Source: an uncultured Clostridia bacterium
Lineage (GTDB): Bacteria > Bacillota > Clostridia > Christensenellales > CAG-314
Assembly: GCA_947589685.1 (NCBI GenBank)
Contig: CANQCN010000009.1
Span: 1 to 40,279 of the forward strand
DNA length: 40,279 bases
Direction: 5' to 3'
Below, piece by piece: positions 4,769 to 10,136 of this stretch; within the stretch, counting starts at the first letter, position 1, and each line of letters opens with the position of its first letter. Both the position numbers and the translations under genes were made by a program. The notes beneath the pieces are model-generated. The model had not been told where the DNA came from, searched no databases, and saw nothing but the letters and a program-made list of their open reading frames with translations.

Positions 4769-6973
4769 ATGGCAATTTACAAATGCAAGATGTGCGGCGG
4801 AGATCTGGACGTCGCCGAAAACGCGACCGTTGCGGAGTGCGAATATTGCGGCTCCAAGCAGACCGTGCCCACCGCCAAGGACGAGGAGCTGGCAAGTCTG
4901 TTCAATCGCGCAAACATACTGCGCCGCAAGTGCGAGTTCGACAAGGCAGAGCAACTGTACGAAAAAATTCTTGTCAAGGATGACAAACAGTCCGAGGCAT
5001 ATTGGGGCGTGTTGCTGTGCAGGTACGGCATTGAGTATGTCGAAGACCCCGCAACGTCCAAACGTTTCCCCACCTGTCACCGTACCGCGTTTGAGGCAAT
5101 TACGTCCGACGAATACTACAAGTCTGCATTGCAGTATGCCGACCCCGTGCAAAAAGCAATTTACGAGCAGGAAGCAAAGTACATCGACGGCGTACAAAAG
5201 GATATCCTTGCTCTTTCCCAGCAGGAAGACCCTTACGACGTGTTCATCTGCTACAAGGAAACGGACAACGGCAAGCGCACGCAGGACAGCGTGATCGCCA
5301 ACGACATCTATTACCAACTCACAAGCGAAGGTTTCAAGGTGTTCTATGCCGCTATCACCTTGGAAAACAAACTCGGCTCCGCTTACGAACCGATAATTTT
5401 TGCCGCGCTTAATTCGGCAAAAGTGATGTTGGCAATCGGCACTAAGCCGGAATACTTCAACGCCGTGTGGGTCAAAAACGAGTGGTCGCGCTATCTCAAA
5501 ATGATGAAGAGCGACAAATCCAAACAACTCATACCCTGCTACCGCGATATGGACGCATACGAACTGCCGGAGGAATTTGCCCATCTGCAAGCGCAGGATA
5601 TGAGCAAGATCGGCTTTATCAGCGACATTGTACGCGGTATCAAGAAGATTGTGCGCAAGGAAGAACCGAAAGCGGAAAGCCGCTCCTCTGAAAGCATTGG
5701 CGGCGGCAGCCTCAAAAATCTGCTCAAACGCGCCTATCTCGACCTGGAAAGCCGCAATTTCGACAGCGCTCGTGTGCAATTTGACAAAATGCAGGACATC
5801 GACCCCGAAAACGGCGAAGTGTACCTCATCGGTTTGCTGTGCGACCTGCGGTTATCTCGTCCGGAAGATTTGGAGGAGTGTTCGGATTCGTTTACGAGCA
5901 ATAACAATTGGCGTAATTTGGATCGTTATGCCGATTCCACATTGAAAGCGCGCATGGACAAGTTGTTGCAACTTAACGAAAATTGGAGAATGTACTGCTC
6001 TGCCACACAAAAATTCGATTTGTTGAACGACGATAAAATATACGAAGATACAAAGAATCAGCTTGCCGCACTCGGCGATTACCGCGACAGCAAGGATTTG
6101 CTTGAATTTTTACCTGATGTAAGGGATAAGGTTCTTGCAATGGATATAGAGAAAATTATCAAAGAGAACAATGATTATAACGAGTACGACGATTCTTACG
6201 CCACTTTGCACGAAAGTGAATATAAAATGCTGTTGGCTGAAAAAAAAGTGTATGAATCCGATTTGAAACTGCACGGAACAAGCAATTGGTGGGATGCGAC
6301 AAAAGAGGCGCGCCTATCCGAGTTGCAAAAACTTATTGAAGAAGATGAAAACCATAAAGCTGGACATGAAAATTACGATCCACTTGAAAACTGCAAAAAA
6401 GCAAAACAGCTACTTGCAAAGATTTTGAATGATGAGATTCGTACACAATGCGGAAAATTGCTGAAAGAATCAATTAAATCCGTGATCAAGCGTAGCAACG
6501 ACAAAATTCCTGAAGATGAGAAACAAATCGAGATAATCAATGAAGAAATCCAAAAGTTAAAGACAGAGTCAGATTTTTGCTCAAAAAACAAAGAAAAAGT
6601 GAGGAACGGTCGAGTCGCAGTTACTATTGGAAATCCACTTGTCGTAATATCTATGCTTTTGCTTGTCTGGGGCGGATTAAGTGCCTTGTTAGACTGGGGT
6701 GGTAAATTCTTATTAATTATCGGCGGGATCGCATTTGTGCCGGGTATTATTATGTTCGTTTTGGGAAGAGTTTTATACAAAGATATAAGAAAAAAATATC
6801 CGAATATAACGGCATCGTCTTTGGATACAATTATTTCAGATAATGGCAAGAAATGTTCACAGGACGCGGCACAGATTTCGGATTTAGAATTCGATATTGA
6901 AAATCAAAAAAACAATATCAGCGCCTACGAAAAAATGTTGGACGAATTGGAGCAGGAATACCCAGAGGAATAA
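4769..6973 (+). CDS. Zinc-ribbon/TPR-like/TIR domain protein with C-terminal two-TM segment
   Basis: N-term YKCKMCGGDLDV..CEYCGSKQ zinc ribbon; TIR core PYDVFICYKETD..DIYYQLTSEGFKVFYA..LGSAYEPIIFAALNSAKVMLAIG; hydrophobic stretches near C-term; RBS aaaggag before ATG. Confidence 0.9.
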   Translation: MAIYKCKMCGGDLDVAENATVAECEYCGSKQTVPTAKDEELASLFNRANILRRKCEFDKAEQLYEKILVKDDKQSEAYWGVLLCRYGIEYVEDPATSKRFPTCHRTAFEAITSDEYYKSALQYADPVQKAIYEQEAKYIDGVQKDILALSQQEDPYDVFICYKETDNGKRTQDSVIANDIYYQLTSEGFKVFYAAITLENKLGSAYEPIIFAALNSAKVMLAIGTKPEYFNAVWVKNEWSRYLKMMKSDKSKQLIPCYRDMDAYELPEEFAHLQAQDMSKIGFISDIVRGIKKIVRKEEPKAESRSSESIGGGSLKNLLKRAYLDLESRNFDSARVQFDKMQDIDPENGEVYLIGLLCDLRLSRPEDLEECSDSFTSNNNWRNLDRYADSTLKARMDKLLQLNENWRMYCSATQKFDLLNDDKIYEDTKNQLAALGDYRDSKDLLEFLPDVRDKVLAMDIEKIIKENNDYNEYDDSYATLHESEYKMLLAEKKVYESDLKLHGTSNWWDATKEARLSELQKLIEEDENHKAGHENYDPLENCKKAKQLLAKILNDEIRTQCGKLLKESIKSVIKRSNDKIPEDEKQIEIINEEIQKLKTESDFCSKNKEKVRNGRVAVTIGNPLVVISMLLLVWGGLSALLDWGGKFLLIIGGIAFVPGIIMFVLGRVLYKDIRKKYPNITASSLDTIISDNGKKCSQDAAQISDLEFDIENQKNNISAYEKMLDELEQEYPEE

Positions 6974-7018
6974 TATTTGACTCTCAAAATACCGACAAAA
7001 GAAAATAAGGAGAAGAAA

Positions 7019-7669
7019 ATGAGCAGTACTAACGGATATGAATATACATCACGACATCCAGATTGGACTCAAAAAGACATTTTGGATAAATTTAATTCTG
7101 AAGAGTTCAAGAGGTTATTTGGTTTTTATGTTATATGCAATCCATATGCAAAATCAAATTGCAGCAAGAAGAATATGGTTGAATATGGGTGGGGTAACAT
7201 ACGGATCATTGATTTAAAGAAATATCTCCTTTACGAGGTTGGGCTACAAGAAAAATCCATTTTTTCCAAAGAAAAAATTGATGAAATGAAAATCGTTTGC
7301 GCAAATGAAAAGTTTGGAGAAAATTTTAATGATTTGCTGGATACCGAGAGGGCAGTCATTTGTCTAAGAGATGATAATATTGTTAAGAGTCTATTTAATC
7401 ACATTCGAAATGCATTTGCTCATGGAAGATTCGCCGTGTGTGATTATAATGGTGAAAAAAACTCCAGGATTGTATTGGAAGATGTTGACCCAGACCATCA
7501 TTACCAAAAGACAATTGCTGTTTCCGCACGTATGGTACTTAAAAAGTCAACATTGTTAAAGTGGATAGACATAATAGAGGCGGGTCCGGACTCCGAAGAT
7601 TATCGGCAATATCTTCAATCAAAACAAAAAGACAAAAAATCAACAAAGGAGAAAAAGCCAAATGTCTAA
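7019..7669 (+). CDS. HEPN-like protein, putative RNase
   Basis: Motif HIRNAFAHGR matches the HEPN RN-x3-H active-site pattern; RBS aaggag; 3' end overlaps the next ATG. Confidence 0.65.
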   Translation: MSSTNGYEYTSRHPDWTQKDILDKFNSEEFKRLFGFYVICNPYAKSNCSKKNMVEYGWGNIRIIDLKKYLLYEVGLQEKSIFSKEKIDEMKIVCANEKFGENFNDLLDTERAVICLRDDNIVKSLFNHIRNAFAHGRFAVCDYNGEKNSRIVLEDVDPDHHYQKTIAVSARMVLKKSTLLKWIDIIEAGPDSEDYRQYLQSKQKDKKSTKEKKPNV

Positions 7670-9431: not shown

Positions 9432-9440
9432 AGAAAAAAA

Positions 9441-10136
9441 ATGAAAAAGAAGAATTTAATATACGCAATACTTTCCTTTGCGGTGGTGCTTGCCGTCTAT
9501 TGCATTGTTTTTCTTGTGATTCCGTTTGCCAAGTCGGCGTCCTCTTGGATAACATTCGGCTTTACGGTGCTTGCTATCTGTTTGAGCGGCGGCGTGTTTG
9601 CCTATGCCTTTTGCGTAAAAAGTCCGAAAAGCAAGCTTTACGGCTTTCCCATTTTTAAGGTGGCGCTGATTTATGCCGCCGTGCAATTCGTCGGCGGTAT
9701 TGCGATTTGCATTGTCGCCGCGTTTGTAAACGTTCCCGTTTGGATCCCGATAGTTTTATTTGTGATTTTCCTTGCGGCGGGAGCTTTGGGCTTTATCGCA
9801 ACAGACAGCGCCAAGGGCATTGTTGAGCAAATAGACGCGGCAACGAGCAGCACGCAGACCATTGCAAAACTTCGGACGGAAGTCGCATCCATAATCGACA
9901 TCTGTGCCGATGCGAACGCACGCGAAAACATACAAAAGTTGGAGGAACTTTTGAAATACAGTGATCCAATGTCTTGCCCCGAAACTATGGATGCGGAAAA
10001 CGACCTTGTTACCAAGACGGCGCAACTTCGCGACAAGGTACAAAACAAGGATTTTGTCCAAGCAGCCGCGCTTGCCGAGGAAATCAAGATAAAATTGGCA
10101 GAACGTAATCGCTTGTGTAAACTTTACAAAAAATAG
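9441..10136 (+). CDS. Membrane protein with several N-terminal TM helices and a C-terminal helical region
   Basis: MKKKNLIYAILSFAVVLAVYCIVFLVIPFA and further hydrophobic stretches; 9 nt after the SPFH gene. Confidence 0.75.
   Translation: MKKKNLIYAILSFAVVLAVYCIVFLVIPFAKSASSWITFGFTVLAICLSGGVFAYAFCVKSPKSKLYGFPIFKVALIYAAVQFVGGIAICIVAAFVNVPVWIPIVLFVIFLAAGALGFIATDSAKGIVEQIDAATSSTQTIAKLRTEVASIIDICADANARENIQKLEELLKYSDPMSCPETMDAENDLVTKTAQLRDKVQNKDFVQAAALAEEIKIKLAERNRLCKLYKK

Follow-up and report, generated by a model that had tools for sequence, protein, structure and literature searches.

What is the four-gene operon at positions 4769 to 10136 of a 40,279-nucleotide (nt) stretch from an uncultured Clostridia bacterium, and do its TIR, HEPN, SPFH and membrane proteins belong to one system? 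The stretch, called the window here, is the whole piece of DNA that was analysed (contig CANQCN010000009.1, assembly GCA_947589685.1), and its source genome is a 1.48 Mb assembly of 79 contigs, labelled G000 in comparisons. We found that the operon belongs to a widespread system, in which the SPFH protein and a four-transmembrane (4-TM) protein are the constant core and TIR proteins are the usual partners, and that the HEPN gene is one of several interchangeable accessory genes. Our preferred reading, to which we give a probability of roughly 60%, is a TIR conflict system of gut Clostridia that is modular and scaffolded at the membrane, in which sensing would lead to depletion of nicotinamide adenine dinucleotide (NAD+) and to the action of an accessory effector. 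The operon contains the following genes and motifs, with lengths in amino acids (aa).

4769 to 6973, plus strand: gene 1, 734 aa, with zinc ribbon, TPR, TIR, TPR, two-TM hairpin and coiled coil in that order (Pfam, hydropathy).
5240 to 5605, plus strand: TIR domain of gene 1, aa 158 to 279 (Pfam TIR_2, 43.4 bits against a cut-off of 28, E = 5.7e-11).
5480 to 5482, plus strand: E238 of gene 1, predicted catalytic glutamate (invariant in 99 of 99 homologs, aligned to the glutamate of WCQYE in the TIR domain of one solved Toll-like receptor structure).
6614 to 6763, plus strand: two TM helices of gene 1, aa 616 to 634 and 647 to 665 (hydropathy).
7019 to 7669, plus strand: gene 2, putative HEPN-family protein, 216 aa, in the accessory slot (homologs align along its length).
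7406 to 7423, plus strand: HEPN R-x4-H motif of gene 2, R130 NAFA H135 (R and H invariant in aligned homologs).
7662 to 9431, plus strand: gene 3, YdjI-type SPFH protein with N- and C-terminal zinc ribbons, 589 aa (Pfam Band_7_1, DZR).
9441 to 10136, plus strand: gene 4, predicted 4-TM protein with a cytoplasmic helical domain, 231 aa (hydropathy, AlphaFold model).

An earlier sequence-only reading of this DNA had described four same-strand open reading frames (ORFs) with gaps below 50 nt and an 8-nt overlap between genes 2 and 3, and the coordinates agree, with 45 nt between genes 1 and 2, the 8-nt overlap, and 9 nt between genes 3 and 4. Gene 2 starts at the ATG at 7019 behind AAGGAG, with an alternative TTG start at 6977 possible. 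The zinc ribbon (of the C-x2-C type), TPR-like region, TIR domain and two TM helices claimed for gene 1 were borne out by Pfam and hydropathy. The same applies to the description of gene 3 as a YdjI-type SPFH protein with zinc ribbons: it matched Band_7_1/SPFH in Pfam with 135 bits (E = 3.3e-39), has a ribbon at each end and has no TM helix. Gene 4, described as multi-TM, has four predicted TM helices. Its AlphaFold model, made from an alignment of 53 homologs, is confident (pLDDT 94.8), and comparison of this fold with the PDB gave no match at E <= 0.001, so that no solved structural relative was found there.

When GTDB genomes were scanned with the SPFH alignment, 80 loci were obtained, mostly in Clostridia, of which 77 had a callable SPFH gene. 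The 4-TM gene was no more than two genes from SPFH in 68 of these 77 loci, with a median gap of 3 nt between the two, and at least one zinc-ribbon-TPR-TIR gene was present in 63 of the 77, on the same strand in all 63. Where full flanks were available, a TIR gene was present in 34 of 38 SPFH loci, and loci carried from one to five TIR-family genes. Because this co-occurrence is beyond chance, we regard the SPFH/4-TM core and its TIR clients as conserved; the set is almost certainly a real system. A separate survey covered 200 genomes of the same order, the window genome being included in the counts, and found SPFH relatives in 161 genomes, gene 1 in 40, gene 4 in 13 and gene 2 in just one further genome. 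Strong gene 1 matches adjoined SPFH and mostly gene 4 too, in varying gene orders. Thus, co-occurrence elsewhere held for the TIR, SPFH and membrane-protein genes, while HEPN joined them only occasionally. A fixed four-gene unit was ruled out because HEPN is accessory, and the more general claim of a candidate new membrane-associated TIR system is well supported by synteny.

The catalytic glutamate of the TIR domain had first been placed at E207 (in SAYEPIIF), which is conserved in 98 of 99 aligned TIR proteins, yet lies off the canonical TIR position. That position is occupied by E238 (WVKNEW in the window, WxxNEW in the family), which is invariant in all 99 and which a profile match to a solved Toll-like receptor TIR structure places opposite the WCQYE glutamate. 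The WCQYE-type position is the catalytic position of TIR NADases. Because E238 aligns with the canonical glutamate, E207 was misassigned and is not expected to be the catalytic residue; the conservation of a TIR motif residue among homologs, which the earlier claim presupposed, is found at E238. The TIR domain is predicted to cleave NAD+ through this residue.

The N-terminal part of the TIR proteins, about 450 residues, is conserved and the remainder is swapped. Among 86 C-terminal parts, RCC1 repeats were found in 24 and DUF6273 in 20; the remaining C-termini gave LRR_5, ankyrin or TPR matches, and some have TM hairpins as in the window. Exactly one TM helix, near residue 593, is predicted in 39 TIR proteins, and the part beyond it is 188 to 2453 residues long (median 314). 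In these single-TM forms, mean net charge was +4.4 in the 15 residues before the helix and +0.8 after it, and the bias had this direction in 37 proteins against 1 (Wilcoxon p = 9e-8). The positive-inside rule would therefore place the TIR domain in the cytoplasm and the RCC1, DUF6273 or LRR part outside, and the single-TM relatives are predicted to have an N-in/C-out topology like that of Toll-like receptors. The resemblance to the animal receptors, which consists of a cytoplasmic TIR, one TM helix and a variable repeat domain opposite, is found in many relatives but not in the window copy, where gene 1 has a two-TM hairpin and no ectodomain; many other family members have no predicted TM helix. 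Unlike the animal proteins, the bacterial ones have reversed polarity with an N-terminal TIR, carry a zinc ribbon and TPRs, and are probably enzymes instead of adaptor scaffolds, and we do not claim descent. One locus (L100, 2683 to 8424) encodes a bacterial TIR-TM-LRR protein of 1913 aa, in which a single TM helix precedes an extended array of LRR_5 repeats.

The operon is part of an accessory island, whose other features are as follows.

3285 to 10741, no strand assigned: accessory island with recombinase, inverted-repeat element and four-gene operon (flanks adjacent in relatives).
3607 to 4532, plus strand: tyrosine recombinase, probable invertase, split by a frameshift into ORFs 3607 to 4161 and 4158 to 4532 (Pfam Phage_int_SAM_3, Phage_integrase).
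4561 to 4585, no strand assigned: left inverted-repeat arm, 25 nt, 88% complementary to 4702 to 4726 at a distance of 116 nt.
4610 to 4638, minus strand: promoter-like site between the arms, facing away from the operon (OFF), TTGATT-17-TATAAT with TG before the -10, 10/12, a consensus match only.
4702 to 4726, no strand assigned: right inverted-repeat arm, pairing with 4561 to 4585.

The flanks of the island are a radical-SAM activase gene, which ends at 3284, and a HAD hydrolase gene (10742 to 11518, minus strand). In the same-genus genomes G019, G148 and G106 these two genes are direct neighbours, separated by 56 to about 410 nt, with no island there. The island occupies this site in G000 and in G184, where the copy is split over two contigs, and is located elsewhere in G019 and G106. 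Between G000 and G019, DNA identity is 91% over the initial 1.7 kb of gene 1 and 89% over the SPFH/4-TM pair, compared with about 73% in the chromosomal flanks, and the segment from 6480 to 7645 is mostly replaced. Of 25 genomes of the genus, 5 have close relatives of SPFH or of the upstream element (G000, G019, G106, G184 and, at 47% identity, G478). The locus is patchy, with empty sites and exchange between genomes. Carriage as prophage or phage cargo was rejected, as gene 1 had no match in phage records and the TIR was on only one viral contig in IMG/VR. Gene 4 had no matches in plasmid records.

Between the recombinase and the operon lies an element that resembles an OFF-oriented invertible promoter and is a candidate switch. 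The repeat pair in the window has a perfect core of 17 nt, where shuffled sequences reached 12 at most; G019 has a different arm sequence in a perfect 21-nt pair at nearly equal spacing, a third pair is present in locus L146, and all three exceed shuffled controls. The window and G019 share their geometry (arms of 21 to 25 nt, 116 to 119 nt apart) while differing in sequence. In all three, the best promoter-like site inside the arms faces away from the operon, though such sites are only modestly commoner than in shuffles. Invertible promoters of the RecV type in gut bacteria and C. difficile likewise have a tyrosine recombinase beside inverted repeats upstream of an operon (PMC7446863, PMC9286219); the element here differs in that it would control a TIR operon and in that inversion is something we infer, since no flipped copy was found.

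A competing explanation of the element is that recombinase and repeats form an integrative element concerned with mobility, with no invertible promoter, and the island is indeed missing from sister genomes and sited differently in others. However, the repeats are always between the recombinase and the operon and never at the two ends of the island, their geometry is kept as their sequence differs, and a promoter-like site is found within the arms. We consider this explanation less probable than a switch, with appreciable weight left to it. A purely mobile role for the recombinase was dropped after the repeat pair of the same geometry and different sequence was found in the sister species. Repeat pairs between a tyrosine recombinase and a TIR operon were seen at 4561 to 4726 in the window, 10840 to 11005 in L090, 5279 to 5439 in L077 and 7064 to 7342 in L146, enclosing a promoter-like site that faces away from the operon, as expected of a candidate invertible promoter in the OFF state. 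Both G184 and G019 carry an unbroken recombinase (308 and 313 aa); the frameshift in the window is either decay or an assembly error and, if real, would leave the switch locked.

The RNAFAH motif of gene 2, earlier described as HEPN-type, is present, and R130 and H135 are invariant in all gene 2 homologs aligned, but the match to PF18736 (pEK499_p136 type) is below threshold at 21.5 bits against a cut-off of 26.6. The homolog in L151 reaches 26.7 bits, barely above this cut-off. A single-sequence structure model of gene 2 was unusable (pLDDT 36) and was discarded, and its HEPN profile had no matches in the PDB, so HEPN membership is supported by sequence and not by structure. Gene 2 resembles the PF18736 RNases in its R-x4-H motif and C-terminal region and differs from them in falling below the Pfam cut-off and in being a swappable accessory of an SPFH-TIR operon. 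HEPN genes are present in three SPFH loci: the window, G106, where it is directly before SPFH, and L151, where it is between two TIR genes. In the sister genome G019 a SIR2 protein replaces HEPN between TIR and SPFH, and the accessory genes of other loci encode SIR2, FRG, DUF2971 and unannotated families. Most of these accessory folds recur in known conflict systems.

Gene 2 could instead be an unrelated passenger, or a stand-alone RNase, inserted by chance between genes 1 and 3. The finding that no more than three of the examined SPFH loci contain it and the occurrence of relatives elsewhere, such as in BREX and on a Treponema plasmid, would fit this, but HEPN is directly before SPFH in two species and between two TIR genes of one operon in L151, SIR2 occupies its slot in the sister species, and translation of genes 2 and 3 may be coupled, as their 8-nt overlap suggests. 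A chance insertion is unlikely. The BREX relative is a distant one, between pglX and pglZ on a Collinsella aerofaciens plasmid (L174, 7986 to 8585; NZ_OY725717.1), and on the plasmid of Treponema saccharophilum (L173, 5224 to 8564) the HEPN homolog adjoins genes of the SUMF1/EgtB/PvdO family and a Fic gene. Two unannotated accessory families recur within these SPFH/4-TM/TIR operons, one of about 235 to 257 aa (L099, L105, L124 and L137) and a second of 157 to 206 aa (L110, L118 and L146). Members scanned had no Pfam matches above cut-off, and these families are possible new effectors or regulators.

Taking the modular conflict system as the working model, the 4-TM protein would recruit an oligomer of the TM-less SPFH protein to form a membrane platform, and the zinc-ribbon-TPR-TIR proteins may dock on it, perhaps through their zinc ribbons or TPRs. 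In the window copy the hairpin would anchor the TIR protein, and in many others the protein would cross the membrane once and carry an RCC1, DUF6273 or LRR sensor on the outside. A signal of infection or envelope damage, received through an ectodomain, the membrane or a phage protein, would cluster the TIR domains, which may then cleave NAD+ through E238 and cause growth stop or cell death. A swappable accessory enzyme, a putative HEPN RNase in the window and SIR2, FRG or DUF2971 elsewhere, could deliver a second hit as RNA or NAD damage. In some copies, including the window, the recombinase may invert the promoter and so turn the operon on or off, limiting its cost. This is probably a system for defence or suicide triggered by infection, and we consider immunity or regulated death its likely role.

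Several points weigh against the modular conflict system. Four of the 38 full-flank SPFH loci have no TIR gene, TIR catalysis is predicted from one conserved glutamate, and HEPN is rare among SPFH loci, with a structure model at pLDDT 36. None of the four proteins had a convincing PADLOC match. Some defence genes (LeoA/BC, AbiL, Jet) lie among the neighbours, counted without control genes, and the promoter element was seen in one orientation only in two genomes, its flipped form not being found.

The chief rival for the operon as a whole is an envelope-stress system, in which a YdjGHI-like SPFH/4-TM platform would sense membrane or wall damage and the TIR would serve non-enzymatic assembly or mild NAD signalling. 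YdjI is anchored by its membrane partners YdjG and YdjH and acts in envelope stress controlled by sigma-W (PMC8581546, PMC11237479). Anchoring of an SPFH protein by membrane partners has this precedent (PMC8581546). The B. subtilis pspA-ydjGHI operon shares with the window a TM-less YdjI-type SPFH protein with a zinc ribbon, encoded beside membrane protein genes, and extracytoplasmic domains are predicted in many copies of the system. In contrast, the four window genes have no PspA or TPM partner by Pfam, the membrane partner is a different 4-TM family, and TIR and conflict-type enzymes (SIR2, HEPN, FRG) are present. The canonical TIR glutamate is invariant, and patchy distribution, exchange and swapping of genes would be unusual for a housekeeping stress operon. 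We consider the envelope-stress explanation unlikely. A survey of PSP systems describes SPFH (band-7) operons with PspA, and its 'Tir' matches are CesT/Tir chaperones and not TIR domains (PMC11237479). Least probable is surface recognition among bacteria or of the host (allorecognition), in which phase-variable receptors with diverse ectodomains would respond to neighbouring cells, bacteriocins or molecules of the host by inducing dormancy or death. The variety of RCC1, DUF6273 and LRR ectodomains, the presence of as many as five TIR genes in a locus and the candidate switch of the promoter are in its favour, but many members, including TIR paralogs within the same loci, have no predicted TM or ectodomain and the window copy has a short hairpin only.

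As the sequence-only reading had supposed, the combination matched no named system: no PADLOC or NCBIfam model covers the gene set, and identity with a named defence system was rejected on that ground. Against the Thoeris models, the ThcB4 score was 20.7 bits with a cut-off of 220, and a match to the ThsA model was absent. Thoeris ThsB, TIR-STING and SpbK share with the modular conflict system a TIR with the canonical glutamate, predicted NAD+ cleavage and a likely abortive response, but the system here has an N-terminal zinc ribbon with TPRs, membrane anchoring, variable C-termini and the SPFH/4-TM core, and no ThsA, STING or cyclase partner was recognised in the window operon. No description of an SPFH/TIR system was found in the literature searched, which left out most subscription papers and is weak evidence of novelty. 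The domains are of known kinds; their assembly and the receptor-like bacterial TIR architecture appear undescribed within the searched sources. More tentatively, at somewhat less than even odds, the system would be a bacterial counterpart of Toll-like receptors in gut Clostridia, with single-pass proteins that have a cytoplasmic TIR NADase and exchangeable external sensors (RCC1, DUF6273, LRR), an SPFH/4-TM platform dedicated to them, second effectors that can be swapped, and a promoter that is phase-variable in some copies. It would then survey the membrane in a way unlike any catalogued immune system.

Bacterial TIR immunity is known mainly from cytoplasmic sensors. If the modular conflict system is correct, SPFH microdomains would gain a direct immune role, Toll-like receptors would have a bacterial parallel, and many TIR proteins of gut Clostridia that lack annotation would be accounted for. 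With its exchangeable slots for sensors and effectors and its candidate promoter switch, it can be tested in named carrier strains, among them Ruminococcus sp. FC2018 (L111), Pseudoflavonifractor capillosus An827 (L164) and Lachnospiraceae NE2001 (L167). An SPFH/4-TM/TIR operon with three TIR genes was also seen in a record titled Methanocorpusculum, an archaeon (L140), as a result of either transfer or a mis-binned contig.

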